A stretch of DNA of 21,209 bases from Chloromonas sp. AAM2. Taxonomy: Eukaryota; Chlorophyta; Chlorophyceae; Chlamydomonadales; Chlamydomonadaceae. Below, in pieces: positions 2,929 to 21,209 of this stretch. Every line of letters begins with the position of its first letter. Within the stretch, counting starts at the first letter, position 1. The notes beneath the pieces were generated by a model. That model ran no database searches. It was not told where the DNA came from and saw only the letters and a list, made by a program, of their open reading frames with translations. Where the stretch lies: positions 1-21,209 of the forward strand of contig QAXH01003804.1 in assembly GCA_004335635.1 (NCBI GenBank). Reading direction: 5' to 3'. The position numbers and the translations under genes are program-made.

Positions 2929-4247
2929 TCACAGCTGGGTTGTTTGCTGCTGCTGCTGCTGCTGCTGTGGCTGCGGCTGTTGGTGGCTGTTGTTAGTTGA
3001 TCTGAGTGGGTGACCAACCGATGAACTCCCACGTGACGACAAACTGTCATACGAGGCAACCGAACTCAACTGCCCAGACCCTCCTTGCACCCCTGCCCCT
3101 CGCCCCCCTGTCCCCACACCTGCACCCGCACCACCGCTACTGCCATGCCCCCTAACAGCCCCGCTACCAGACGCAGCATCTCCTGATGCACTCTCCCTCA
3201 GTACCGCCCCAAGCTTCTTTCCCACTGCAGCCTGACGGGCACTCCTGCTGTGGTGCTGCTGAATTCCACCTCCCGCCTTCGGCGGTCCGAGTCCCGTCGT
3301 CAACGCCGACACCAAATTATCACTAGTGTAAGACAGATCTCCTGATCCCCAGCCTTCCTTGGACGGGCTCTGCACGGTTGAGTTGTGGCTGCCAGGACTC
3401 ATGGCCACATCGGTCGGCGGGGCGGTGAAAGCGGTGGGGTTGGCGGGCTTGCGGGGAACGGAACCGCTGCTGCTTACTGCAGCGGGGCCGTCAAAGCTCG
3501 CGCGGACGGGCTGTTGCTGCAGCTGCCTCGGGGACGTTGTTGTGGTTGGCATCGGCAGGCTATTGCCAAAGACCGGCGGCAGCTGCGGAATACTTCTGCC
3601 TTGCGGTACGACATGACTAGACTCAACTACGGGGACGTCACCGGAATCCAAAAAGGCGGTTTCTCCGATGCCCGCTGTGCCTGCAGTCGGTACGGGTGCA
3701 CCTGCCACCTGGCCCCCGATAATAGACGCGTAATCTTGCCCTCGGCTTTCCATCCATTCGCTCGGCTGATGGTGGGACGAAGTCGCTGCAGCTGGTGGCG
3801 TTGAGCTGGTATGACGAACGGGAGCGGGGCCAACAATAGCTTCGGCACTGTTGCTTCGAGCCATGGCGGTGACCGGAGCAGGGCCGGAGGCAGTTGCGGT
3901 TGCGGCCGCGCCGGACGCTGAAACGGCCGCAGCAGTGGATTTCCGCAGCTCGCCTGCGGACTTGGCCGATTGCTGTCCCGCAGGCGGGCCGACGGCCCGC
4001 AAAACGTCTACCGATTTGAACGACAGCTGCGGTGCGACAGCCATGCCCTGCGGCTTTGACCCCCCGTTTTGTGCGCTCGCAGGCGATTTGAGGGGGGAGG
4101 TGGTGGTGGGAGACGTGCTGGCGCTGGCGCCCCGGTCCATGGCGCCCTGCGGCTCGGGCACGGGGAAGCGCAGCGTGTTGAGCCGCACGCGTGTCCGGAA
4201 CCACCGGCGCCGCCGCACGAAGTGCTTGATGGTACACTTGCCCGTGC
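2929..4247 (-). other. Exon 13: DysF C-terminus and disordered Ser/Gln-rich tail
   Basis: The terminal exon encodes the end of DysF (residues 972-990, including [10 protein letters not shown]) and then about 420 residues of Ser/Ala/Gly/Pro/Thr-rich sequence without a recognisable fold. It ends in a Gln-rich run ([17 protein letters not shown]) and TGA at 2931-2929. The open frame runs on upstream past the TTTGCAG acceptor at 4248-4250, so the exon start was set by splice site and phase, not by the nearest ATG. Confidence 0.85.
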
Positions 4248-7200
4248 CTGCAAACCACACGCATACACAATTGCATGTTGTAAGCGCTGTTGATCACCGG
4301 TCCCGGTGATGTTGTCGCCTACCATGTCACCATAGCTGTTGTATGCATGCAGGAAGCAATGAACAACTGTATGCTGACACCTGATACCAACAGCGCCTGG
4401 TGTCGTCACACCTTGCATACAACCTGACGTGGTACGCAATGGAGGTTTGCGTAAACCACACATCAACCAAGTGTGAGTTGTGATGATGCAACCACGTAGG
4501 CGCTGCTGAAGTTTGGGTGGAAATGACATTGTCACAAAGCCGACGGCCTGCCATGCTAGAGAGCAATTCTACCGTACACGCATAACCGCTCGAGACCTTA
4601 CACTAGGCGTGCATATGTGCTTCCCTCAGACACAGGGCAGCCTGCTGTTAGGACTGGTTGCTGCGCATTATAGCCGGGCATGAAGTTCAGAGGGAGGGAG
4701 GTAGTGTGGGCCAATTCCATGTGCTGCGCAGTTGCCAAGCCAGCGCATGCCATGTCATAGCCGAGCACAATGTTCAGACCCAACACGAGACAGTGTGGGC
4801 TGATGCTCAACAACAAAGCATGTGCCAACTTGCATGCAGCAGCGGGATGCTTCAGCTCTAGACACACACACCAGTCACCAATGCATACACAAGACATGGC
4901 ATTGATGCATGTGCGAGCTTGCCTGCAGGAGCGGGGTGCTTCAGGTAGTTGAAGTCCAGCGCATAGGTCCAGCCCTGATCATCCACTGCATCCCTGTCCA
5001 GACCCTCCATGTCCAACTGCCAGTCCTCCTCAACCCAACTGAATAGAAACGGACATCGCATGGGGCAAACACGCAACACTTCAGCGGCGTCTCGTGTGCA
5101 TGTCTCATGGAACGTGACTGGCAGTCTAACCACCCTGTTTTGTTGACCGCTCCTTCCTGTATTCTGTCAACTGCTTCAACCTGTATTTTGGTGGATAGCA
5201 GCAGTGGAAAGAGTGATACTGCAACACACTGCTGTATACACATCCCTGCAGGACAATGCCAACCGATCCGATCCAATTCCACTCACTGCCCTCCTCTGGT
5301 TAGTTTCAGTGTGATTCTTTAGCGTGTTGACAGAGAATTGTATGCAGCCCCACACACCACAGTGCTTGACACTCACTGCCATCCTCTGGGTAGTGGCGGC
5401 TCGACCTGGTCGAATATCATGGAGGCGCTGCCCCCCGGCCCGCCTAAGGCATCGCTCCAGTGACCCACTCGGTCCGAGGGAAGGAAGTGGCCCGGCCACA
5501 TGTGGCCCCAACCCCTGCAGGGCAAGGCACAGGGCGCAACCGATATAGTGGTGGTCCCAAAAAAAAGGCGTTTGCCATTTTTCCATGGACTGCACTCTGT
5601 CAGCACCCTGTCAGCTTCATGCACGATGTCAAATCTTTCGTTACACTCGTGTTGTTGTTGTTATTGTTGTTGTCCTTAGTTACACTCATGCCCACAGAGA
5701 CCCCTGCGGCGACACACAGACACCCACAAACGCCACGGCCACAACCACACCTGAAAGGCTGGAACCGCTCGTTTTCGAACACTTCCTCCTCCACAACGTC
5801 CGGCCCGTCGTCTGCTGGGCCGTTTCTCATGCTGACGCTGCCCGGGCCCGTCAGCTGCGCGGCGCCCGTGGAGGCGGCGGGGACGGAGGCGCCCTCGGGG
5901 ACCTGACCGTCCTCGCCCTCGCCGGGCAGGATCATGCCCTGCGGGAATGACAGCCGACAACTCATTGCATGGAGGTTATAAGAGCGGCCACAGTGAGCAG
6001 ATCACGTGATCAACGTGATCGGCCACGTGGCGTGAAAGCAAACCACTCATTGCATGGTGATCGAGGCTGACTACACATGGCTGCCAGGAGAAGTGGCCCA
6101 GGCACAGACACAACACACCAGTCTCCCTACTGCCGTGGTGGGCCTTTACGTCAACGACAGGTGCTAAGCCCTTCCATATTTCCTTAGTGGCATGGGATCG
6201 CTATACACATCACGTGATTAGATTTGAGGGCAACTGACGGCCATGACCTTTTGCATGTGAAGCGAATAGACGCCAACGGCTGGGATCACATGGATATTGT
6301 GACCATCATGACCATCACCAGCAATGCATGCTGTCTAAGTTCCATCTGGCAGTGCTGCAAGTGTTGAACGTGCACGTCTGAATGGGCACATTGAGTTTGT
6401 TGTTCAAGAGTTTGCAGAGGGTGTTTAACCACCATGTCGCGCCTTGCCACACCCTGCTTATCGTAGTCTTACCGGTTTCATTCCCAATGCGCCTTTAAAA
6501 CCGTCAGACAAGGCATCGAAGCTGTCCGACACAGACTTGAACCAGTTGTTGCCAGGCATGTACTGCAGTTCAACAACGACGAACACAACTGGGTGTCAAA
6601 ATTCTTGGTGAACAAGTGAGTGCTGGGGGTGCTGGGGGTTGCATGGCCCATGATGCTTGATGTGTGCGATGCAGAAGAACATGCATGCATTTCACATCAG
6701 CCAGTGAAACCCATACAACAAATTGAGTTGCAGAATCACGTACAATAACTACACAATCCGTCTGCGTTTAAAGTTGGTCTAAAAATGCAGGTCAAAGGCA
6801 GCAACACAAGGAAGCAAGACATCTATGACAGGGCGAGTACCCAGACGAGTTGCAGGGTGAGAAGAGCAAGTGTGTTTGGAAAATGCACGTGACAGGTGGA
6901 CCAGGTGGATACAAGGCAAACTCCCAACCAATCGCCCAAACAGGCACAAGGCAAGTACCCTGCAAGCTCATGAAACGGCCAGCACGTGACAACCAAGTCA
7001 ACGAAACGGCCAGACATGTGGCGCACCTGCGCTGGAGGCATGGCACCCGGCGGGTACTGTGCCCCAAAGACTTGCGTGGTGGTCGTGCTGGTCGTGGTGG
7101 TGACAGCAGCCATAGATGAGCCAGCCGCAGGCACTATAGTAGGAGGCACCACGCTGGTGGGTGGGCTGCTGGAGAGGGAGATGGAGGTGCCGATCGAGCT

Positions 7201-10200
7201 GTCGGGGGCCAGGGCGGCGTCACCGGCGGTTGGAGAAACGTCATTTGTAACGTCTGGCATGTGGGAGAAGGTTGTGAGCAGGCGATCATTGCCGGCGTGC
7301 GAGGATCTGCAGCAAGAGATACGACCATGTTATGGTATGTGAGGGCTGCTGTGCACATTTGTCCGTGTGTGTGCATTTGAACAACTTCATCTGAGACTAG
7401 CAGCATGACCTGCTCGGTAGACAGAGTAAAAAAACAGAAGGGGCCGTCCCCAAAGTATGAAAGAAATTGGGACAAGCCTGTGGCCAGCTCTTACCAAACT
7501 CGCAAGAAACTGATGTTTGTCGACTGTGGCTCCTAAACAGGGGATGTGTGCTGAATGTACTAGAAACGAACAAAAGGAAGTTCCTCTGCGACAACAAGCA
7601 CACAATGCGTGGAATTCATATCTTGCCACCAACCTTGGGGATCCAGAAGGCGAGGGAGGGTTTGTCTTGGAAGCCCGGACAGTGGTTGCAGAGCCGTTTC
7701 CAGCTGCCATGGCGGCTGCATGCGCTTTTGCGCTAGCAGCTGCCAAGTCAGCAGCAACAGGATCGTCAGCCCAAGGCTGAGTGGTGCCTTGGCGAACGCT
7801 GCCTTCTGGAGACGTCTTCTGAGAAATTGCAGCAGACGGGGTAACATCCTCACTGGCCTTACCCGGTACTGCAGTTGGGACGGCTGACTTCGTTGATGGA
7901 GGTTGGGCAGTTGGGATGGTTGACTTCGTTGATGGAGGTTGGGCAGTTGGGATGGTTGAGGTGGTTGGGGACGTCGACAGATGCTGACTGGAACTGGGCA
8001 TCACCGACATTTCCATCTGCACTGGCTGGTGGTTGTTGATACGGCTGGTGGTTGCAAGTGAGGAGATGTTTCTGGTAGCGGTTGTGGCAGTTGTGGTGGT
8101 TTGTGTGATTGCTATGCGTGGTGGCGAAGTGTTGTTGTTGCCGCTGTTGTTTCTGTTACCGGCTGTTGTACCCGACGCAGATGTGCGGCCAGGACTGGTA
8201 TTCGCAGCAGGTGGTGTTGACATCGCTGGAACTGTTCTTGGCAGCTCAGACGCCGGCGCCAAAGCAGTCAAGGTTGTCGATGTCCCAGCTCCCGTTGTTG
8301 GATTAACCATTTGCGCGGAAGGCCCGCTCGACACTGGACCAGTCCCACCACTCTGACTTCGACTGGGTGTGGTTCCTGGAGCAACAAGGCTGGCTGCTTG
8401 GGTCGGCAAGACGGGCGCCGGCCGGCCCTTTGGTGGGACGATATCCGCCCGCCTTGGCCCCGCCTTGGACACGTGCTGCTGCGGAACCGGTGTTCCGTTA
8501 ACGTTCACTACCTTAGCCTTTGGGATGGCTGGCCCGCCTGCGCCCCCCGCTGCGGCTATCGCCGCACCCCGGAGCGTGGGTGTGGCGGTACCGGAGGCGG
8601 CGAGGGCGTGGGAGCGCGGGCCGGGGCTTTCTTCTAAGGGAATCGGCTCAGGCTCGGAGGGGGCAGCCGTGACGTGGGGCGAAGAGATGGAACGGCTGTG
8701 ACGTAAGGGGATCGATGCCTCGCTAGCTGGTCTGCATGCACAATACAAGGTGCTGACTGATGGGTAACGTGTTCGTTTGTGAGTCGCCTAGCTGAATGCC
8801 AGGAGTAGTCCAAAACAGTAGTAGCAGTGAGTGACGGGCATAACACACAGCGGCAGCAAAGTCTCTCTGAAGGCTTGTGTGGCGCACGCAGCATTGCCAC
8901 TGCTTCGTAGCACCTCTTTCCACCTGATGCCTGTTCAACTCATTCGTACCGCCATGACCCCTCCTACTCGGCCACTGCGCCACTCGTGCCTGGCCTACCA
9001 TGCCACAGACCAACAGCTCCTCTGCACCAAGTCTCGCCCTCCCCCTTCCTCAGGCTGTTCTACTGCCAACTCAACAAATACAGTCCATGAATGCATGCGG
9101 TGACCCACAGGCTCCACTGCTTTACTCACCCGACATGGTCCATGGAGGCGTGTGCAGCCCATATGACCATGTAGTTGACCGCAGCCACCAGCAGCAGCGA
9201 CACTATCACCTCGGCCAGCGAGTCGGGGATGTCAACTATGTGGGTGATGGGCAGGCACATGAGCCACAGGACGCCCCTGTGCGAGGGAATGAAGCAGGCA
9301 GTGTGAATGACTCATATGTACATGAGCAGCAGACAGTGCGGGCGACTCAGATGCCCATGTGAAAAACTTGGTGAGCGATTCAGGCCTCCCCAGCGCATGG
9401 CCTCCCCAGCGCATGGCCTCCCCAGCGCATGGCCTCCCCAGTGCATGTCATCACATACACAGCTGCCGCACGTCCCACTGACCTTGAGCCTGTGCAGAAC
9501 AGCTGCACGCTCTGCAGTATCGACACCAGCATGTTGACCAGTGACAGGGTCACAACGGCCGCCATCACGCGCGCTACCACCCCCTCGCTCGCTGCGCTGC
9601 GCATGCCCGCACCCACAACGTCTGACAGGATAGACACCTGCGCACACGCATGGGAGAAGCTGCAGCGTTCGATCACATGCTATTGATTCGTAGAATTTGC
9701 AAATAAAAACCTCACTGTAAAATCGCGGCTCGACTGCAAGGAGTACCGACATGAAACCAAGCATTCCAAAACCTAGCGATCAACGCCTAGACCGTTGACC
9801 GTCAACCATTCTAGCGCTCGTTGCAGCCGCACCGCAATGGTCGCTTGAAGTTTGACTAAGGCGTGCGCCCCGGGGCCCATAACTTGCCAGCCCGGCCACC
9901 GATTGAGAAGCCAAGCGGCTCATTGGATAGCTTACAACATGTACAGTATCATGTGAACGACTGCGGAGGCATTGCGCACTTTGACACGCTGATTCTCGGC
10001 CGCAACGATTGCCGGTGTGACGCGCATGGTCTGCCGAAGTGCAAGTCGAACAATATAACAGACCTAGTGCGGTGTCCTCATGCTTTGAAGGACTTAACAT
10101 CCTTCTCGCACCCATTGGTACGCTTTTCGGGAGGTTTTAACTCGGTTGCTGTTGGTGGCCGGCGGGCTGTGGCGTGCCGGAGAAAGCTACGGAACGCAAC

Positions 10201-13200
10201 AACGGCGCGATACCCTGGCGCACATTGATGAAACCTAGCTTGAAGCAACACACTAAACGATAGCTTTCAGAAGATCTCTTGTTCGTTCACATCGGCTCTG
10301 TGGTTGCAAAGATGACCCTAAACATGAGCCCAAACAGTGATGGTACCCATGTGTGTGCCTATTGCGCCATCGCTCAGGGTCGCTGATCCTAATTGTGAGA
10401 GATAAAGATCTCAGTGCCAGACGACACGCAATACAAGCAGACGCACAGAAACAAACACCCACAGACACCCACAGACACGCACAGACACCCACAGACACTC
10501 AGACACGCACAGACACACAAAGACACGCACAGACACCCACAGACACCCACAGACACGCACAGACACGCAGAGACACCCACAGACACCTACAGACACGCAC
10601 AGACACGCACAGACACGCACAGACACCCACAGACACGCACAGACACCCACAGACACGCACAGACACCCACACACGCACAGACACCCACAGACGCCCACAG
10701 ACACGCACAGACGCCCACAGACACGCACAGACACGCACAGACACGCACAGACACCCACAGACACGCACAGACACCCACAGACACACAGACGCGCACAGAC
10801 ACACACCTTTTTGGAGCGGTTTTCGCTTCCACCACCGTCACGACCCTGCAGCCCGCACCCAAGTATAGCCCACCAACACTCCCCTCAAACCCGGGTCTCG
10901 TGGGGTCAGTTCTACCCTGGACTGTCGTATGCAGCAACCGTCTCGTTTTTTAACATCGAGGGTACACTCTGTCTCAACACCGAGTTCTGTGCAGCGAGTT
11001 GTGAAGACCTTCGACTGGAGTTTGAGTTCTTAAAGCCAGGGCTTTCTGGGCCTGTCAACTGAACAGTGGGGCTGCAGTGGAGTCAAAGGCTGGCGCACTT
11101 GTTGGTAAGGCCAGAAAGCAATCCTGTTGGCGGCCGCTTTGTTCCTGTCTGTGTTTTTTTATTGTTTTTTTTATTGTTATTTATTATTATTATTATTATT
11201 ATTGTTATTATTATTGTTATTATTATTGTTATTATTATTGTTATTGTTGTCTTTGTTCCTAAGTCTGTGTTAACCTTGATGCAAAGTTTTAGACATGTGT
11301 TGGTTGTATCAATCTGATTTCAATGCCAGCTGTATCAGCTTGCGCCCCTCTCTTACCTGCTCTCCCCAGACCAGTTGGTTGTATGCGTACTGCATAGGGC
11401 CCAAGCGCTTCGGAGGCTCCCTGTGCGCATGGACATGGCAGCAGCACCGTGGTAATGCTAGTGGGAAACACGCAAAACATACATCAACCAACCAACCAAT
11501 CAGTCTATCCTACCCTCAACTCCTGCAATCAGTCCAGATAAACTGTATGTATGTATGTATGTATGTGTGTGCAACACTTGACGCCTTGCTTGTGCCAAGG
11601 ACTTGGTGTTTCAGAATATGCGTGTATTCATAATATTCAGAGTAATCAGAATCAGATGTTTCAGAATATGCGTGCGTCCAATCTGGCACCCAGCCCTTGA
11701 CCTTCTGGGTTCTGTTGACTGTGGAAAGACTGTCGTGAACTGTCGCACTGACGCCCTTGGTCCGCAGCACCGCATATTAGGTGCAAAACCGCTGCGAGAG
11801 CGGACAAGTCCTCACGCGTGTTCAATCTTGCACAACAAAAACCCCAGCCCATGATTATCCGCACCTTGGCACTGTCACTGTCACCACTTGTGGCTCATGT
11901 GGCGGTGGTGGTGCCTCCCCTGACCCTGCCTTAGCCGCTGCCGCCGCTTTGGCTGCTGCAGCCGCAACGGCAGCTGACTCTGCCGCCGGCCCAGCCGCCG
12001 CTGCTACAGTCAGCACGCCCGCCTCTGGCACCTCCTCTATTTCGTGGAAGCCCGCTAACGCTTGGCCGTACTGCTTGTATGTGCCACGCACGCCACCTAC
12101 AAAAAGTAACCAGCCCTAGTGCTTTCTTTGCTGTGTCAGGATATCTGAGGCAAGACCTTCCCACGTGGTAGTCAACACACAGAACCTGTCCACAGAAGCA
12201 TTGTCCAATGCAGGGACACATAGGACAACACACAAAACCTGGCTGACCTTCTCACAATGCTGATAGCAGAGGCTACCCCAGCAGTTCCTAACATTGAATC
12301 CACGCTTTACCACCAATTCCCTATCAGCTGACCTGGTGTTCCTAGCGCATGCCTCAGTCCCTTACCCTCCACTGCCTTGGCCACTATTCCTTTTAGCATG
12401 CGGTTCATGGAGGGACTCCAGTGGATGTGGAAAGTGACGTACAGCAGGGTGGCACTGGGGCTCTCGGCGTACATGGAGCTGCGGAAGAATATGTCAAACT
12501 TGTCGCCGTAGGGGGCCGATGTGTTGGCCTTGATCTCCATCACGTACCTGCAAGGGAGGTCCAGGATGGGACGTAGGGATGCAATGCCAGGCTGTCATCA
12601 TGTAGCAATGAACAAACTGGCAGAAAGTATCATCAGTCTAGTGTAGCTAGGTAGGCTTGCGTGGCAGAGGTACAAGGTCGCAGGGTGCCATGCATGTGCA
12701 CATGGAGTCAGCGCTTGGCGGAGCAGTATTAGTGGCTGAACTGTCTGCTGTCATGGACATGGCGTGCTATCATCTTATCATCATCGCCAGCATCAGCATC
12801 CTTCCATGACGTGCAGATTTGTGCAGAGCATCGTTTCATGAGAAAACGGATCAAAACGTCAGCAGGCAGGCCTACGGTGCTGCAGCTCAAACAGTTCCTG
12901 GGCAGGCTGTGCTTTAAGACCACAAAGGCTACAAAACCGCAAAGGCCTGCCTGTGTGTACCCTGGTGCCTGCAAGAACAGCCTTCGCCTACACCTGGCTC
13001 TGAGCCTGTCCTGCTGTACGCAACGGCTCATCGGCACTAGCAACAGCACAACCTTGGCACCACATGACTTTTGTGACAGTGCCACACAGGCTGTGACTGG
13101 AGCCGCATGGGACGCCCTGAACCCGTTCTGCTGTGCAAATGTTTGCCACTTGAGACTGTCCTGGACTTGGCGTGCTGACCTCAGGCCGCTATGCCTGGTG

Positions 13201-14177
13201 CTCAGCTGTGCGCCGTACAAATGCCGCCACGCTCATTTTATTCATTCCATGGGCCATGCCATGCAACCTGAAAATCACATTGTAGTTTCCCCCAAAATCC
13301 TCTGAAATCAACTGCTGCATGTGTGTCTGGTGTTCGGGGCTTGGTTGCCTACCTGTCACCTGGACGGTACTCCGTGCACAATTGAACCTCCTCGTTGTTA
13401 AAGGGCTTTGTGGCCAAGGCCGCTGGCGGGCTCTCAAACCGCACCTGCTCGTATGCATCACATGGACCACGCTGGATGCAGGCGTGTCGTTGCATGCCAT
13501 GCTATGTGGGGCCGTAACGAGTGCTTGTGATTAGAATACACGCTATTCCAAGCACAATCCGCTGTTCATGAGGTGGGCGACACAGCAAGACAGCCCCAGT
13601 AGACAGGTCAGACGGGCACTGCAGCCACTGCAACAGCTGCTGCACCAGTGATATTATATATACTTATTACAATTGACATGCGCAAACAAGTATCAAACCC
13701 AGCTACAAGTACAAGCATGACAGCTGGCCACTGGACAGGGTGGCACCCTGGCTGCAGATGACAGTCCAGCTTATGTGGGCACACACCTTGCGCCATTTGT
13801 TTCCTTCTAACTTGTCTGTGCTTGGAGGAGGGACCTCCCATGCGAACTGACCCTGTGGCAGCTGATCCTGGGATGAGAACCATGATGTCTCAACCAGATG
13901 CGTGTCATTTCGCATCCTGTGAAGCTCGCCCTGCGGGCGACAGTCAGCCTCGGTTCGTGTGCCCTTTCAAGCAGGCATGTTCGCTGGCAGGTTGGAAAGT
14001 TGCGCTGACTTTCGACCAGGCCATGCAAGCTGACCCAGCACCTTCGCCTTCCTAGCTTACCGTGAGTTCGGAGTTGATCCATAAAGTCTTGAACAGCTCA
14101 TCTACGCTGCATTTGACCCGTACACACAGCAACACGATTTTGGATTGGTCACCATCGTCTGGCCAGAGCCGGGTCAT
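2929..14177 (-). CDS. VASt-transmembrane-DysF domain protein, 13 exons, 1409 aa predicted
   Basis: Exons, in transcript order: 14177-14061, 13930-13787, 13444-13353, 12547-12366, 12096-11865, 9659-9483, 9276-9130, 8731-7634, 7306-7027, 5938-5751, 5514-5377, 5038-4923, 4247-2929. Every junction keeps phase and the exon total (4230 nt) divides by three. Residues about 10-180 resemble the VASt domain (StAR-like fold, binds sterol/lipid in GRAM/VASt proteins). Residues about 287-311 and 336-356 are membrane segments. Residues 365-823 are a low-complexity linker. Residues about 870-990 form a dysferlin/peroxin (DysF) domain. The tail is Ser/Gln-rich. The predicted job is a membrane-anchored lipid-binding protein, perhaps at a contact site; that is inference. 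No GRAM domain precedes the VASt domain, although this is the usual partner. The start is the only in-frame ATG in exon 1; an earlier exon would have to overlap the divergent reductase gene. The least certain junction is 11865/9659, because a second acceptor lies at 9637. Confidence 0.85.
2944..2985 (+). repeat. CAG/CTG trinucleotide tract coding polyglutamine
   Basis: An uninterrupted run of CTG on the plus strand is followed by imperfect units. Read on the minus strand it encodes the Gln-rich C-terminus of the VASt-DysF protein. Such tracts often vary in length between strains. Confidence 0.9.
4821..4949 (-). repeat. Duplicated copy of the exon 12 end inside the next intron
   Basis: The 3' end of exon 12 with its donor (4909-4949) has a diverged direct copy at 4821-4861 within intron 12. 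The copy keeps the sense of the coding end (LKHPA read on the minus strand) but has lost the donor context. It is a decayed local duplication, not an alternative exon that keeps the DysF motif. Confidence 0.7.
4923..5938 (-). other. DysF (dysferlin/peroxin) domain exons 10-12
   Basis: Exon 10 (5938-5751) ends with an acidic stretch and [13 protein letters not shown], the opening motif of DysF-N (E.xENxR..P). Exon 11 (5514-5377) continues with [15 protein letters not shown] and VGHWSD, then PPLPRGW. Exon 12 (5038-4923) gives [10 protein letters not shown] and [11 protein letters not shown], the Trp-rich DysF core. The last exon then supplies [10 protein letters not shown], the typical DysF-C ending. 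DysF domains occur in dysferlin, TECPR1 and yeast Pex30-type proteins of ER-peroxisome contacts. The motif order is complete, so the domain looks intact. Confidence 0.88.
5939..7026. other. Intron 9 with CACGTG palindromes and a coding-like stretch
   Basis: This 1088-bp intron of the minus gene contains the perfect palindrome GATCACGTGATC (6000-6011), GCCACGTGGC (6022-6031) and ATCACGTGAT (6209-6218), plus a direct repeat of CTCATTGCATGG (about 5971 and 6045). CACGTG is the G-box core in plants. It also occurs at several other places in the window, so function here is unsupported. Confidence 0.5.
6363..6619 (+). pseudogene. Possible coding remnant, antisense within intron 9
   Basis: Two plus-strand stretches read like protein. 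The first, 6363-6428, gives [20 protein letters not shown] then TAA. The second, 6467-6619, is 50 residues between stops, including [20 protein letters not shown] and [15 protein letters not shown] then TGA. They could be pieces of an inserted element or of a retrocopy. I recognise no family, and a chance reading is possible. Confidence 0.3.
7027..8731 (-). other. Exons 8-9: disordered Pro/Ser/Thr/Ala-rich linker
   Basis: Exon 8 (8731-7634, 365 residues) and exon 9 (7306-7027, 93 residues) encode a long low-complexity stretch rich in Ala, Pro, Ser, Thr and Gly. No fold is recognisable. It includes two perfect copies of a 12-residue repeat ([12 protein letters not shown]) and runs of Thr near the end of exon 9. 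The junction is CCCCAAG/GTTGGT to CTGCAG/ATCCTC, phase 2. Length and composition suggest a flexible tether between the membrane part and the DysF domain. Confidence 0.78.
7871..7956 (-). repeat. 36-bp coding minisatellite in exon 8
   Basis: Two identical 36-bp units (7885-7920 and 7921-7956) are preceded by a decayed partial copy (7871-7884). The unit is a multiple of three and encodes the dodecapeptide [12 protein letters not shown], so copy-number change keeps the frame. Confidence 0.9.
9130..9659 (-). other. Exons 6-7: two transmembrane segments
   Basis: Exon 6 (9659-9483) carries a hydrophobic stretch of about 25 residues beginning [19 protein letters not shown]. Exon 7 (9276-9130) carries [16 protein letters not shown], which is moderately hydrophobic, followed by a clear membrane helix ([20 protein letters not shown]). 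The junction uses AAG/GTCAGT and CACAG/GGGC with matching phase 2. The pair could form a hairpin with VASt and DysF on the same side of the membrane. In GRAM/VASt proteins a C-terminal membrane anchor in the ER is usual, so an ER location is the natural guess. Confidence 0.78.
9385..9448 (+). repeat. 16-bp tandem repeat, four copies
   Basis: Four head-to-tail units of CCTCCCCAGCGCATGG, the last with two changes, lie in intron 6 of the minus gene, 35 nt from the exon 6 donor. They create a run of open reading in several frames that is not coding. Confidence 0.9.
10461..10806 (+). repeat. Decamer minisatellite (ACAGACACSC)n
   Basis: About 35 head-to-tail units of a 10-bp motif, mainly ACAGACACCC and ACAGACACGC, with a few slipped or shortened units. 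It lies in intron 5 of the VASt-DysF gene. The motif has no stop in most frames on either strand, so it produces several long but meaningless ORFs of Thr/His/Arg or Cys/Val repeats. Confidence 0.95.
11150..11255 (+). repeat. ATT/GTT-rich simple repeat
   Basis: A T-rich stretch followed by (ATT)n interrupted regularly by GTT gives a 12-bp higher-order pattern (TTATTATTATTG). It lies in intron 5 of the minus gene. Confidence 0.9.
11603..11676 (+). repeat. Short direct repeat TGTTTCAGAATATGCGTG
   Basis: Two near-identical copies, about 50 bp apart, flank an AT-rich spacer in intron 5. A (TGTA)n microsatellite lies just to the left (about 11543-11566). Confidence 0.75.
11865..12096 (-). other. 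Exon 5: alanine-rich linker after the VASt domain
   Basis: This exon encodes residues 180-255. It starts with a short non-repetitive part ([20 protein letters not shown]) that may close the VASt fold, then runs into a poly-Ala/Gly stretch and a short poly-Pro. The acceptor is TTGTAG before GTGGCG. The donor I chose (AAG before GTGCGG) leaves phase 2. Several in-frame GTGACA donors lie just upstream, so the end may shift by up to about 20 nt, or a small extra exon may lie in the 2.2-kb intron that follows. Confidence 0.65.
12366..14177 (-). other. VASt-domain exons 1-4
   Basis: Four exons (14177-14061, 13930-13787, 13444-13353, 12547-12366) encode residues 1-178. Recognisable VASt features in order are: an opening strand and helix ([15 protein letters not shown]); a Trp-containing stretch ([10 protein letters not shown], then NKWRKVRFESPP); an acidic segment ([16 protein letters not shown]); the conserved [11 protein letters not shown] motif; and a final strand plus helix ([10 protein letters not shown], then [11 protein letters not shown]). 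Intron phases are 0, 0, 2 and 1, and all agree with the following acceptors. None of these exons could be called from a single long ORF. Assignment to the family rests on the order and spacing of these motifs, not on a database search. Confidence 0.82.
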
Positions 14178-14558: not shown

Positions 14559-17500
14559 ATGGCCACAGCATCAGGCACTATCAAGACAGGTGGGTACCCC
14601 AAGGAGGCGAATGGGTCAAATCACGAACACTGCATCTGTTGACCAGCACGCCCTTTCAAATCACACAAGCAGACGACCAGTGCCTTCTCCTACAGTAACA
14701 AACAGCCGGACATTCGTTTTCAGGCCCGTTTCTTGGAGCTCCATCAGTGCCACGCCTTGGCTTAGGCCTTGCCGCCCTGGGCCGCCCAGGATACAGTGAG
14801 TGCAGGAAACGGCAATACAACAATCTCTTGCTGTGCTCTTAGCTGACTTTCCCTGAATTTAATAAATTTATAAATCAGATGTCAGGGTTGGTCATGCTAT
14901 GTAGATGTCTGAGGGTACTGACTCTACATGTTAATTTTAGCTTGTATCTTTCCCCTGTGCTGTGATATATGTAGGAGTCTCAGCTAACTGTATACAGGGA
15001 TCCCAGCTAACATTCGTTAACGGTAATAACGTTGATACCCTAACGTTTATGTTACTTGTTACTGCCTATTTTTGAAACAGAGTAGAGAATTGAAGGTGTC
15101 CAATGTTAAATATGAAAGGATATTCGGAATTCCCAACATTTGTACAATCAGAAACCAATGTTAGCAACAGCTTACCCACCACGCCCCACAGAGCAACCCT
15201 TGTTCTCCCTGGCCACATTCCGTACTCAAGATCACTACTGCGCCTCCTCTGATAAAGGGCCTGCAGCCACCCCTGATGGGCCTGCTGGCAGATCTGCAAA
15301 TGCCGTATCAGCCGCGATCGCACATGCCTTGGCTGTGGGTTAGCTGCCGGCAGCGCAGAAGCCTGACACTTCGCTGACAAGCACCGGCTGTGGTAGCTTT
15401 TGCCATTGCTGCTTGTTTCGGGGCTTATTCAGTTCAACAAGGATTTCTTTTAACCGAGTAGAGAAGTTGAGGGTCCAAAGTTAACTATGAAAGCGTATGC
15501 CTGAATTATAACACGGGGTCCAAAGCAAAACTGAAATGCCATGCGTTCCAAATCAGGCAGGACGAAAGCAACAGCCAAAGCAAGCCTTGTGTCGATTTGC
15601 CGGAAGCGTTGTAAACGCGCAGTTACTGGTCAAGTGAACCTGGTATGCTTTAATATATTGGTTTTTTTAATTACATCAGGGGTTTCCGCATGCACCTAGC
15701 GCGAACGCTAGCCAGCCAACACTGTTGTGCTACTCGTCACAACATAGCATAGCAGTTGGAAAGAAGAGTGGGAATCGCCCACCGCTCTGGTCCTCACCAC
15801 TTGGCATGCTTGCTGCTCACTGCTCAGTCAATCTCGGACATGGCTCGGACTTTTCATCCAAAAGCAAGGAGGACATGCGCCAACAGAGCTGGGAGGTGCT
15901 GGATGCGGCGCATGAGGCAGGGCTGAGATACTTTGACGCCGCAAGAAGGTGACTGGCTGGGGCACAGACTGGACGCATAGGTCACATACAAGTACTGGGG
16001 CCAGTTCCGGACAGAATCCCACTCGTCCTCGGCCTCCCATGCTGAACCAACCCCCATGCGCTGATGTCCGTGTTGTATGTCACGGCTTCAAACGAACATT
16101 CTTTTTTTACCTGTTGCTCAGGGCTGTTCAGGACGTGTACAGCAGGAAGCTGTTAGCTGGGAACTGTTTTCTTTTGTTGCTCGGTCAGGACGGTATCCGG
16201 CTTTGCCTCTGGCATGGCTTGCTTGGTCTCTTACTTTGTCTCTTGCATGGCCGCTTCGTCTCTTACTTCACCTCTTGCATGTGGGCTGCCTGCTTGTGGT
16301 CTAACCATCAGGGTCGATATGAGCAAGTGTGCAGTGACTTCATTTATACAACCCACAACTAGTGGAGTAGCCCGTGCTGTGCCCTTGACAATCAGACAAG
16401 CAGAGCCCGTGCTTCTTTTGTCTTATGGAGTAGCGGAGTAGCCCGTGCTACATCACTACGTCATTCAACCACACAACTACGTCATACTACGTCAACTACC
16501 ACATCTACGTCATACTACGTCAACTACCACATCTACGTCATCCGACAATAAGACAAACAGAGCCCATGCAGTGACTTCAATCATACAACTTCAAGAATCA
16601 AGACCGGCACACATGTAGTGACCAGTAGGTTACCGGTAATTTCCCTCCCCCCTTGCCCCCGCTGAGCAGTCCTCCCCGGACTGAAGGCCATGTAAACAAC
16701 AACAACAACAAGACCGGCATACACACATGGCTGCAGTTATGGACGGGCGGAGGAGTTCCTGTCCGGCTGGCTCAGGTCGCGTCGACATGTGCCCGGATCC
16801 TTGCTCGTGGGCTCCAAGTGGGGATACTATTACACGGCTGACTGGCAGGTAGGCTCTCCTTCTGATACTGTCTTCTTCTTTACCACCTAAAGCTTGAGTT
16901 GCGAGGAACGGGCGAAAACTGATCTCTTTGCTCTTGTATTGAAGGTCTGGGCAATGGGAAGGGCTGGCTGCTGGGGTTGCGCTGTGACTTGAAAGCAAGC
17001 AAACAAACAAACAAACAAACAAACAAACAAGCAAACAAACAAGCAAGCAAACTGAACACGCCTACTGCGACCTTAGGAGTAAACGAACTAGACATGAACA
17101 GCAAGGGTCTTTTACTGTCTATACTAGCTTGCGCAATGCCTCCAAAGACTCACTGTGCCCGCTCTTTGTATCCCACCTACCATCAATACCACCTGACTAG
17201 GCCTCCTGGCCCTTCTTGTGTCCCTTTATCTAGTCTTTGACCTTGACTTTGGCGGCTCTATCCTTGGGTTGGCCTGCCTTGCCTGCTTTGTTCCCTGCTT
17301 TCCTTTGGCTTTCTTGCTCAGGGTAGGCCAGGGCGGTGCCCATCCCGGTCCGTGTCCTCTGACGGCTTCCCTGGTGTAAATACATATGTATCAATTGTCA
17401 TTGCAATTCACACGAAGTATCGTGGGGCTCCTTAGCATCATTTTGCCATCTGAATAAATCTGTGCAGGCCCGCCTATGTATTTCAACTAACGCAGAGGCG

Positions 17501-20193
17501 CTACATTCTGTTTCAACTGTGAAAACACAATGTAACTGCACATTTCACGTACGTGTCCTTGCAACTTCATCAGGAATGCCTCTTGCTTCCCATGCAGACA
17601 GACACGGGGGGTGCGCCCCACGAGGTCAAGGAGCACACGGCCAACCGCCTAGCGCTGCAACAGAAAGAAACGGCTGCCCTGCTGGGTGATCACGTGACTC
17701 TCTACCAGGTGCACAGCGCCACCCTGGAAAGCGGCGTGCTGCAGGTAGGCGCCTTTTGTAACGTTTGTTCACCTCTTGTTTGGGAGCTCCACACCTTTCT
17801 TTCCCTTTCCGGCGTGCTGCGGGCAGGCGGCTGAAAAACCAAGGTTTGATAGCTGTGCTGCTCGTGCAGGCGATACTGGTCTTGCTGGATTGTGTCATGT
17901 TTGAGAACTGCCTTCTGTTCTGTTTTATCGTGGATGTTTTCTTCTGTTGCTCGGGATTGGTCAGGGCGGTGTCCACTTGCGTCTCTTGCACCGCTTGAAC
18001 TGATCAGCATGGTGAGTTTGCGCAACGGTTGAAACACATGCTCCTCGGCAGGTGATGTTCAATGACTTAACGGCAATGACAGGCCAGCATCCCAAGCAGG
18101 CGCATGACGATTGCCATGCAATGATGCCGCACATGACATGCGGGAACAACCGACAATCACCATGTTTGCATTCCATCATTCTGCCCATGACCCTGCCAGA
18201 CCTTCCAGAGGACCCTGAACCTTGCATGTGCATGATTTTTGGGGGCACCAGGCCCATGCTTTGTTTAGGATGGGGATGTTGGCTGCTGTTGAGCGCCTAG
18301 CTGGTTGGTCCTGCGGTACCGTGGGTTGCACCATGAGAAGCTATGTAATGATGATGATGATTCCGCCCATGCAGGCCCACGACGTGCTGTCGGGTTTGGA
18401 AGAACTCAAGACGTCACGCGGGTGGCGCATAGGCCTCTCACTCTCAGGCACGTGACAACCAAGCACGTGGTGCTTAAAATCACACTTGTGCCTTTCACAG
18501 CCACGTGCATTGCAAACTTTGAAGTGCCAGCTCGGCTAATTCATTGTAAAAGGGTGGCTCTTCAGTGACACCCAAGCACATGATACTTCAAGGCCTTGAT
18601 AGCCAATACAATACAATACAATACAATACAATACAATACAATACATCTTTATTAATCCTGTCATTGGATTTGTGTTCAGCCATGGGCCTTCTATGAAAAG
18701 CCATGTAATGATGATGATGATGATGATGATGGGCCTTCTATGTGTATGTGAAGTGCACGTGCAGTTTTACATCTGCGATTCCTGCATGCGCACGTGACTG
18801 TTTCCATGTACGTTTCCTGCAGGTGTTGGCCAGTCCGACACCCTGAGGTTGGCCCTGCAGGTTCGCATGTCGTGTGGTCGGCGGCTGTTCGACTGCGTAC
18901 AGGCCACATGGAACCTCCTGGAGCAGTCGGCGGGGGCAGCGCTGGAAGAAGCGCATGACCAGGGCATGGACATTATTATTAAGGTTGAGCCCTACTGGAT
19001 TGACGATGCTGATGCTCCTTGACACGACCAGGCAGAGATGGATGGCATGGTGCCAGTTGGTGACAGTCAGGTTAAGGTTGATGATGTTGGCAGCCTTCAG
19101 TTAATGTTGTTGAGGGTCCAGAGGTTAGTTAATGTTGTTGAGGGTCCAGAGGTTCAGGTATCTGCCAGGGTCCAGGGCACTGCAGTTTGCTTTGAAGTAT
19201 GACTGTTTTGGCGGTAAGGTGATTTTCACTACCTCGCTCACCATAAACGGCGATGCTGATGCTCCTCAAGGCTGTTGATGTTGATACTACTGCTACGCAG
19301 CCTTCAAATGATGCTGTTTTCTGCCACTCAGCTTTCGCTACTTTGCTTAGCAACAACGTGGCCATATGAAGCTCCTTACCATGTTGTCTTGAACACACTG
19401 AGGCTCCGTTACAAAACCATTTGTGCGCTCATCTGAAGCAAAACAGGGCGTCAGCTTTTGCATACGTCAAGATAGTCGAGAAACCAAAACGACAACGCAC
19501 GATTACGAATTTACCCAAGCATAACATTGACATGCCAGCCAATAGACCGAGTGCTGTGTCGTCCTGGGTACTGGTGTGCGCAGGAGGGCGTGGCCAACGG
19601 CCGGCTGACCCAGCGCAACTCTGACCCTTCCTTCGCCCCCCAGCGGGCCCTGCTGGGCTCTCTGGCCTCACAGTTGGGGTGTGGTGTGGATGCTCTAGCG
19701 CTGGCTGCGGTCATGGCACAGCCCTTCAGGCCAATGGTACTGTCAGGAGCGACAACAGTGGAGCAAATCAGGTGAAATTGAGGGAGGGGGGCAGAGATGG
19801 GGAGGGCAAGAGGACGGGAGGCAGCTAGTAGGGCAGCCGGCAGGGTACCCTTGGCTATATATATATATATATATATATATATGGCTAGGTTGTGTGAGAT
19901 GATGGTCCATCTGTTGATTCCATTTGATTCTGGATTTTCTGCTTTGCCTGTTGTTGCATCCCGCCTTAGATACTGAACCACCTTAGGAACATCAAATGGA
20001 CAATCTTTTACCATAGTGTTCAGTGACCAATTATCACCAACTGTCTGATGGCTGTTTCCATTGCAGGTCTAACGCTGAAGCCCTTGAAGTGTGCGATCAG
20101 CTGCAGCCCAGTGACCTGTCAACCCTCCAACGGGCCCTGGTGCAGCCCGCGGCAGAGTACTGGGCTCAGCGCACCCGGCTGGCGTGGAACTAG
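14559..20193 (+). CDS. Aldo/keto reductase, 9 exons, 343 aa
   Basis: Exons: 14559-14589, 14724-14795, 15828-15948, 16737-16848, 17598-17744, 18375-18447, 18823-18983, 19584-19771, 20067-20193 (TAG). Total 1032 nt, and all phases match. The product is an NAD(P)H-dependent oxidoreductase of the AKR superfamily, a TIM barrel of normal length. Visible family motifs: PRLGLGLAALGRPGYINLGH near the N-terminus; YFDAARSYGRAEEFLSGWL; VGSKWGYYYTADW; LYQVHSATLESGVL; GWRIGLSLSG; FDCVQATWNLLEQ; SGATTVEQI near the cofactor site; and EYWAQRTRLAW at the end. The catalytic tetrad is complete: Asp71, Tyr76, Lys102, His151. The substrate is not evident. The motif wording resembles uncharacterised reductases of bacteria and algae. 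The start is the ATG of a 31-nt first exon whose donor phase fits exon 2. Exon 6 appears to use a GC donor (TCAG/GCACGT). No TGTAA signal is seen after the stop, and no signal peptide is evident. Confidence 0.92.
16330..16620 (+). repeat. Complex repeat block with ACGTCA array in reductase intron 3
   Basis: A 28-bp unit (16483-16510 and 16511-16538) is perfectly repeated and contains ACGTCA twice. In all six ACGTCA cores fall within about 90 bp. Flanking blocks such as GGAGTAGCCCGTGCT, CAGAGCCC and GTGACTTCA also recur, so the whole block looks like nested duplication. ACGTCA is the core of bZIP/CRE sites, but regulatory use is untested. Confidence 0.8.
16995..17051 (+). repeat. (CAAA)n microsatellite
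   Basis: A run of CAAA units with a few CAAG interruptions in intron 4 of the reductase gene. A shorter (AAC)n run lies at about 16694-16710, just before exon 4. Confidence 0.9.
17727..17832 (+). repeat. Duplicated copy of the exon 5 donor region in intron 5 of the reductase gene
   Basis: The exon 5 end with its donor (17727-17753, GGCGTGCTGCAGGTAGGC) has a diverged copy at 17809-17830 (GGCGTGCTGCGGGCAGGC). The copy has lost the GT donor. Confidence 0.6.
18311..18361 (+). repeat. Dispersed repeat with GAT tail, copy B
   Basis: It reads ...GTGGGTTGCACCATGAGAAG, CTATGTAATGATGATGATGA and matches copy A on the other strand at 1301-1350. It ends about 13 bp before reductase exon 6, so the acceptor sits almost directly downstream of the repeat tail. 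Confidence 0.65.
18604..18671 (-). mobile_element. Non-LTR retrotransposon 3' end with (TATTG)n tail
   Basis: On the minus strand this reads a short body with GGATTAATAAAGATG followed by eight or so TATTG units. AATAAAG plus a pentanucleotide tail is how the 3' ends of some LINEs look. Only the tail end is present, which fits a 5'-truncated insertion in reductase intron 6. Confidence 0.55.
18677..18731 (+). repeat. Dispersed repeat with GAT tail, copy C
   Basis: It reads CCATGGGCCTTCTATGAAAA then GCCATGTAATGATGATGATG and more GAT units. The core ATGAAAAGCCATGTAATGAT is identical to copy A. It abuts the LINE-like tail in opposite orientation, and GGGCCTTCTATG recurs on both sides of the GAT run. 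Confidence 0.65.
19856..19882 (+). repeat. (TA)n microsatellite
   Basis: About thirteen TA units in intron 8 of the reductase gene, flanked by GGC and GGCTA. Confidence 0.95.
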
Positions 20194-20680: not shown

Positions 20681-21209
20681 AATCAAAGCTTTTCCAAAAC
20701 AGTTACGGGTGGCAGTTACGGCCGGTTTCTGTTGTGCCTTTGCAACTGCCGGCCAGGTTTACAGGCTGCCGGTGCTTTTGCAGCCCTTCACACGGCGCGA
20801 CGCGAGCTGTCAGGCTTGGTGAAGCACTTTTGCGGACATGGCGACAAATCCTTTTTCAAGGCCAATGCAGATCTGTTTAACGAATGGCCAGTGATCAAGA
20901 AAACGTTGTTCAATCATGTTAATCTGGGGAGGCATAGCTCGCCTGACATGATCAATCCCAGCGTTGTTTGGGCTCATGTTGCAGCCAGGCCTCTAACCAG
21001 CTCATGTTGGTTTCTATCATGTTCACATTATCGGTGCACACAGCTGATGTCGAGCGTGGCTTCAGTCAGTTTGGGATCATCAAGACCGAGTTGCGCAACC
21101 GTTTGTCGGCCACGGTCATGGATGCACTGCTTCGTGTCAAGCTGCATGGGAGTATTGATGATGTTAGCAACGAGGCCAGTGCGATGCTTGAGGCTGCCAT
21201 TGACTTGTG
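20681..21209 (+). mobile_element. hAT-type transposase, C-terminal part, apparently frameshifted and cut by the window end
   Basis: From about 20681 one frame reads without a stop through ELSGLVKHFCGHGDKSFF and FNEWPVIKKTLFNHV to about 20990. The reading then continues one frame over (21001-21209) with LMLVSIMFTLSVHTADVERG, FSQFGIIKTELRNRLS and MDALLRVKLHG. The ERGFS...K.ELRNRLS pattern is the hAT C-terminal dimerisation region. One indel near 20990-20998 joins the two parts, so this copy is probably dead, although an unrecognised intron could also explain it. Neither end nor terminal repeats are visible; the element runs out of the window. Confidence 0.7.

Follow-up and report, generated by a model that had tools for sequence, protein, structure and literature searches.

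A green-algal protein family joining a VASt domain, a membrane-segment pair and a DysF domain, read from a Chloromonas contig

Gene structure and domains

We identified, on the minus strand of contig QAXH01003804.1 of the green alga Chloromonas sp. AAM2 (GenBank assembly GCA_004335635.1), a single gene running from 14177 to 2929 whose protein combines a VASt domain with a membrane-segment pair and a DysF domain that is complete. The window, meaning the whole stretch of 21,209 nucleotides (nt) analyzed, is this 21.2-kb contig, C998 of a 2324-contig, 74.4-Mb assembly. Read from splice sites and frames, 15 exons and 14 introns (13 GT-AG and 1 GC-AG, intron 14 at 4922-4248) give 4362 coding bases including the stop, or 1453 amino acids (aa), with 0 internal stops. 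The original prediction, made from the letters of the window, had already placed the 3 features in one protein, and both the stop-free chain and the relatives described below bear this out. Its count of 13 exons and 1409 aa has been revised to the figures above, and the stretch 11864-9638 (2227 nt), which it apparently took as its 2.2-kb intron 5, holds the 64-nt exon 6, the end of which aligned to relatives.

Searched as a separate piece, aa 1-205 matched Pfam VASt (PF16016) at 43 bits (cut-off 27) over aa 20-177, covering profile positions 6-149 of 152. A scan of the full-length 1453-aa protein reported Pex24p at 34.8 bits and not VASt; the absence of VASt that this suggested was rejected as a scan miss, as the N-terminal piece alone had matched. 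For the DysF piece, the Pex24p match reached 39.7 bits (cut-off 26.8) and was confined to the final third of the profile (positions 246-358 or 249-358). Two hydrophobic stretches were found by hydropathy between VASt and DysF (exons 7 and 8, Table 1), and the membrane piece alone gave no Pfam match at E ≤ 10. With family profiles seeded by the window protein, 1 VASt stretch was found at E < 0.01 (aa 17-198) and the transmembrane (TM) profile matched aa 291-368 (E 5e-23). The linker from the TM match to DysF spans 547 aa in the window protein and 108-662 aa in the family. A phmmer search of PDB with VASt gave nothing below E 0.36, with YSP2 at 0.85; the fold was assigned from fold searches of the predicted models of 2 relatives, which returned the Aster/Lam sterol-transfer, StART-like cup fold, in keeping with the link of VASt to sterol transfer drawn earlier.

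Conservation across green algae

Sixty relatives (P-numbers) were collected in 3 homology searches, 2 of them seeded with DysF. Scoring in the first search was limited to the 7992 candidates with the most shared words, and relatives had to share short exact words to be found; given this sampling bias, absence from prasinophytes, streptophytes and land plants cannot be read from the searches. The family VASt profile matched 54 of the 60 relatives, the DysF profile 59 and both 53, with VASt first in all 53; VASt, TM and DysF were found together in 47 relatives, in that order in every one. The precomputed Pfam column listed PF06398 and PF16016 together in 29 of the 60. No VASt match was obtained in P0015, P0020, P0022, P0027, P0035 and P0059, and no DysF match in P0002, which is named partial. 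The TM profile had no match in P0011, P0013 and P0052, which carry VASt with 3, 3 and 2 DysF stretches, respectively, and form a separate long branch in the tree; it also missed P0019 and P0057, and P0017 (E 3e-3) failed the 1e-3 limit.

The source names of these relatives include Volvox, Gonium, Astrephomene, Chlamydomonas, Sanguina, Tetradesmus, Myrmecia, Coccomyxa, Apatococcus, Auxenochlorella, Chlorella, Micractinium, Parachlorella and Bryopsis. Taxonomy was checked for Volvox carteri and Tetradesmus (Chlorophyceae), Apatococcus and Picochlorum (Trebouxiophyceae), and Bryopsis (Ulvophyceae), and the class placement of the others is presumed. Judged from these sequences, the VASt-membrane-DysF arrangement is a family across 3 green-algal classes and not one alga's peculiarity. 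One member, P0045 (taxonomy identifier of Picochlorum oklahomense), has VASt, TM and DysF together within 623 aa; its label names MMETSP, a transcriptome project.

In a midpoint-rooted tree of 51 sequences built from VASt plus DysF, Chlorophyceae, Bryopsis/Ulva and Trebouxiophyceae group as expected, with several nodes weakly supported. The window protein is sister to P0001 (support 0.91) and adjoins Chlamydomonas eustigma, so the earlier description of the protein as algal stands. Over the same 51 sequences, VASt and DysF distances correlate (r 0.84), and mean pairwise identity is 0.55 for DysF versus 0.29 for VASt.

The gene is apparently single-copy in its own genome, because all 11 exon matches of a protein query fall on the window contig. 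A Pfam VASt scan of the same genome did not detect the window, where exons split the VASt domain. The Pex24p and GRAM scans of the genome gave no matches, and their controls were equally silent, so these scans are uninformative. In viral contigs, 2 pattern matches and no relative were found.

Support for the exon chain

The 60 relatives were compared with the window by tblastn (E ≤ 1e-3), with support counted for each exon singly. Nine of the 15 exons (1-5, 7, 8, 13 and 14) were matched by between 1 and 58 relatives each, a chain beyond chance; there were 0 plus-strand matches, exons 6, 9-12 and 15 had no match of their own, and one minus-strand match (5639-5454) fell outside the exon rule. 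Junctions 1|2, 2|3, 3|4, 4|5, 6|7, 7|8, 12|13, 13|14 and 14|15 showed 13-27 identities per approximately 30 columns with P0001, and poor alignment was seen at 5|6 (7 identities), 8|9 (12), 9|10 (1), 10|11 (9) and 11|12 (3). Exons 6, 12 and 15 draw their support from cross-junction alignments to relatives. The exon 3 acceptor was chosen so that WRK meets VRFE as in relatives, the alternative being an upstream acceptor at 13501. Exons 9-11, in the fast-evolving linker, are predicted mainly from splice sites and an open frame, and their borders are less certain. The WFKSVSDSF segment of exon 11 resembles WIDSVTDSF of P0012 by eye only, and the junction alignment did not pair them.

Table 1. Coding span and exons of the VASt-DysF gene in the window
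Feature	Position	Strand	Evidence
Whole coding span	2929..14177	-	15 exons, 1453 aa, stop-free chain
Exon 1: start codon, VASt N-terminal part	14061..14177	-	tblastn 8/60
Exon 2: VASt	13787..13930	-	tblastn 12/60
Exon 3: VASt	13353..13444	-	tblastn 11/60; WRK|VRFE junction alignment
Exon 4: VASt core (APYGDKF)	12366..12547	-	tblastn 29/60
Exon 5: VASt end and Ala-rich linker	11865..12096	-	tblastn 1/60; junction 4|5, 24 identities with P0001
Exon 6, 64 nt	11357..11420	-	QLVWGEQ aligned to P0001 QLVWGDQ and P0003 QLVYKDQ; no own tblastn match
Exon 7: membrane helix 1	9483..9637	-	hydropathy aa 296-324; tblastn 2/60
Exon 8: PDS-motif loop and membrane helix 2	9130..9276	-	hydropathy aa 348-372; tblastn 12/60
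Exon 9: low-complexity linker	7634..8731	-	open frame; start weakly aligned to P0001; no tblastn match
Exon 10: linker	7027..7306	-	segment aligned to P0001 VYGAKYPLSAM; no tblastn match
Exon 11: short linker segment (WFKSVSDSF)	6473..6562	-	open frame, splice sites; no tblastn match
Exon 12: linker and first DysF strand	5751..5938	-	junction 12|13, 27 identities with P0001; no tblastn match
Exon 13: DysF tip loop	5377..5514	-	tblastn 58/60
Exon 14: DysF core, then GC donor	4923..5038	-	tblastn 53/60
Exon 15: last DysF strand and low-complexity C-terminal tail	2929..4247	-	junction 14|15, 24 identities with P0001; KKLGAV motif; no tblastn match

DysF tip loop

The DysF alignment comprised 59 rows, the window and 58 relatives, with P0002 and P0059 left out as short stretches. 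Its tip loop, QPFRGWGHxWPGHFLPxD, is conserved (R in 56 rows, the first W in 55, the second W in 58, P in 58 and D in 59), yet in the P0030 model the loop (residues 498-511) scores below 50 on the predicted local distance difference test (pLDDT). Conservation paired with uncertain placement would fit a flexible loop that inserts into a membrane or, more plainly, a poor prediction.

According to the parts of PMC12101078, PMC12101077 and PMC10476172 drawn on here, one end of the DysF domain of yeast Pex30 binds phosphatidic acid (PA), with most contact at W298, I301, K304, F392 and Y395, and W303 and nearby arginines sit in the same PA-contact regions. Pex30 needs its DysF domain to accumulate at contacts between the endoplasmic reticulum (ER) and lipid droplets, and its authors state that TECPR1 uses the same distal DysF region; TECPR1 DysF binds sphingomyelin, with W77 and W154 among the residues needed.

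Aligned to TECPR1, the algal DysF domains keep R76, W118 and W122 in all 59 rows, and the equivalents of the tryptophan/arginine stack (W116/118/122/138 and R159/161/165) in 54-59 of them. The W77 position is instead occupied by L (31 rows), F (16), H (4), V (3), A (2) and Y (1), with 2 rows not itemised, and the W154 position by M (17), I (12), L (8), V (6), a gap (6) and A (3), with 7 not itemised. At these two positions the window carries F and I. With W77 and W154 replaced and R76 and the stack kept, the tip appears suited to a membrane but not to TECPR1-type sphingomyelin recognition. The tip has conserved R, F, W and W; PA binding by the algal DysF is putative.

Proposed function and alternatives

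A contact-site lipid protein, as the original prediction had it, would be the most economical function. By analogy with the families named, from which we infer ligand, ER location, topology, contact site and transfer, we give about an even chance that this is a membrane-anchored lipid-handling (transfer or contact-site) protein of green algae, with VASt for cargo and DysF for targeting. The StART-like cup of VASt would hold a single hydrophobic lipid, a sterol being the likeliest, and the 2 helices would fix the protein in a membrane, probably that of the ER, with VASt and DysF both facing the cytosol. The long linker would carry DysF and let it reach a PA-rich patch, where the tip (PFRGWGHxWPGHFLPxD) would dip into a membrane rich in anionic lipid, most likely PA. 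That membrane could belong to a lipid droplet or partner organelle (in trans) or to an ER subdomain (in cis); DysF would thus set where, and VASt what, is moved.

Several observations weigh against this proposal. The linker is hardly conserved, the low pLDDT of the tip loop may only reflect poor prediction, and in the P0001 model DysF is weak as a whole, with pLDDT blocks of 41-79. The likeness of the tip to Pex30 is drawn from the published description and not from a direct alignment of the PA-binding residues. A StART-like fold reveals no ligand, so VASt may carry a non-sterol cargo, and the hairpin might occupy a membrane other than the ER. GRAM, which helps targeting in LAM/Aster proteins, was not found when the window protein was scanned against Pfam, nor is it named in the precomputed Pfam lists of the 60 relatives. 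The peroxisome link of the original prediction was not borne out: the analysis found no evidence for peroxisomes, and the DysF literature, in the parts cited, is tied to PA, lipid droplets, the vacuole and the lysosome as much as to peroxisomes; the idea is possible, with nothing here singling out peroxisomes.

The serious alternative, which we consider rather unlikely, is an organizer of ER subdomains acting in cis, a green-algal counterpart of Pex30 in which helices and DysF would concentrate at PA-rich budding spots of lipid droplets or peroxisomes and VASt would be a local lipid sensor, not a shuttle. The PA binding and contact-site accumulation described above for yeast Pex30 DysF speak for it, as does the higher conservation of DysF than of VASt, which may mark DysF as the essential half. 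Against this stand the complete VASt fold in the models, a long linker that fits bridging a gap, and a membrane segment that matches neither the N-terminal part of Pex24p nor, taken alone, anything in Pfam.

We regard as improbable a TECPR1-like sensor of membrane damage, whose DysF would detect exposed lipid and recruit repair or autophagy factors. In its favor, TECPR1 DysF gave the best match among PDB sequences (E 1e-6), the algal proteins retain R76 together with the tryptophan/arginine stack, and P0019 carries a TECPR1-like name; against it, the exposed sphingomyelin tryptophans W77 and W154 are replaced, and scanning the window protein and P0001-P0003 against Pfam revealed no tectonin repeat or PH domain. 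Green algae are not known to contain sphingomyelin. Least probable by far is that the exon chain falsely joins 2 adjacent genes; although linker exons 9-11 are little supported by relatives and 7 relatives show one of the 2 domains only, both domains stand in one predicted protein in 53 of 60 relatives, the halves co-vary, and P0045, under its MMETSP label, holds VASt, TM and DysF in a single chain.

Neighboring features and other observations

A multi-exon aldo/keto reductase gene, its pieces joined by eye, lies at approximately 15830-20192 on the plus strand (Aldo_ket_red 70.9 bits, cut-off 24) and is transcribed away from the VASt-DysF gene. At the contig end, a plus-strand frame at 20947-21207 resembles the C-terminal dimerization region of hAT transposases at 13.7 bits, below the cut-off of 21.4. 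A herpesvirus-protein Pfam line in the open frame 20681-21208 (16.9 bits, below the cut-off of 19) was taken as chance. Intron 6 of the VASt-DysF gene holds a minisatellite at 10451-10806 with 36 copies of the 10-base ACAGACACGC unit.

Short conserved motifs also lie outside the domains: the 15 proteins scanned (the window and 14 relatives) included 5 with a KPMRAAPAPKQF-like motif, 7 with a DPLGAL-like motif and 5 with IIEDYA (members near Tetradesmus). These linker and tail motifs were noted in P0003 and P0006-P0009 and, as a second set, in P0014, P0015, P0018, P0020 and P0021, and a docking role is possible. A motif like the C-terminal KKLGAV of exon 15 was seen in 3 of the 14 relatives scanned. 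No FFAT-like motif was found in the 15 proteins, and the C-terminal tripeptides of 61 proteins share no signal.

Elsewhere in the genome, on another contig, the Pfam VASt scan gave one match, at G000:C1103:36116-36262 on the minus strand (L001, 32 bits, cut-off 27). The family VASt profile barely detects it (best E 0.029 among its frames), and L001 is probably a different VASt gene.

Comparison with known systems and meaning

The window protein differs from LAM/Ltc and Aster (GRAMD1) proteins in that no GRAM was found, 2 membrane segments are present and DysF follows a long linker. With fungal Pex23/Pex30 (Pfam Pex24p) it has in common membrane segments followed by a DysF domain with an aromatic and basic tip, whereas VASt stands in front and the match to the Pex24p profile does not extend beyond its DysF part. 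The N-terminal DysF of TECPR1 is the closest DysF sequence among solved structures (8p5p), although W77 and W154 are not kept in the window and its scans gave no tectonin repeats. Plant VAD1 and C2-GRAM-VASt proteins also carry VASt, with GRAM and C2 domains instead of DysF, as described in the portion of PMC4082322 used here.

The same portion of that paper (Khafif et al. 2014) describes VASt-VASt-Pex24p as an innovation of the oomycete lineage, so the novelty of the VASt and DysF pairing implied by the original prediction does not hold. Compared by description only, the oomycete proteins likewise have VASt first and Pex24p in one chain, but they have 2 VASt domains where the window has 1, and the membrane pair is unmentioned there; the words alga, Volvox and Chlorella do not occur in the text of the paper as far as it was available. 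A 2021 survey (PMC8172628), in the part cited, treats the PEX23 family as fungi-specific and has Ostreococcus as the green alga in its species table. Literature searches, which covered open-licence papers, found no account of a green-algal VASt-DysF family. The VASt-Pex24p pairing is thus known from oomycetes, and the green-algal family with a membrane pair is apparently undescribed.

We propose, tentatively and with less than even confidence, that a Lam-type sterol carrier and a Pex30-type PA sensor, 2 separate proteins in yeast, may be fused into a single chain in green algae. Such a fusion would couple PA sites, where lipid droplets or organelles bud, to the delivery or removal of sterol, and would predate the split of Chlorophyceae, Trebouxiophyceae and Ulvophyceae. 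The finding of both modules in one chain in 3 green-algal classes contrasts with the accounts of a fungi-specific Pex23 family and of an oomycete innovation. A group used for oil production gains a defined candidate protein for the traffic of lipids at membrane contacts, and the joint role of VASt and DysF becomes testable within a single protein.

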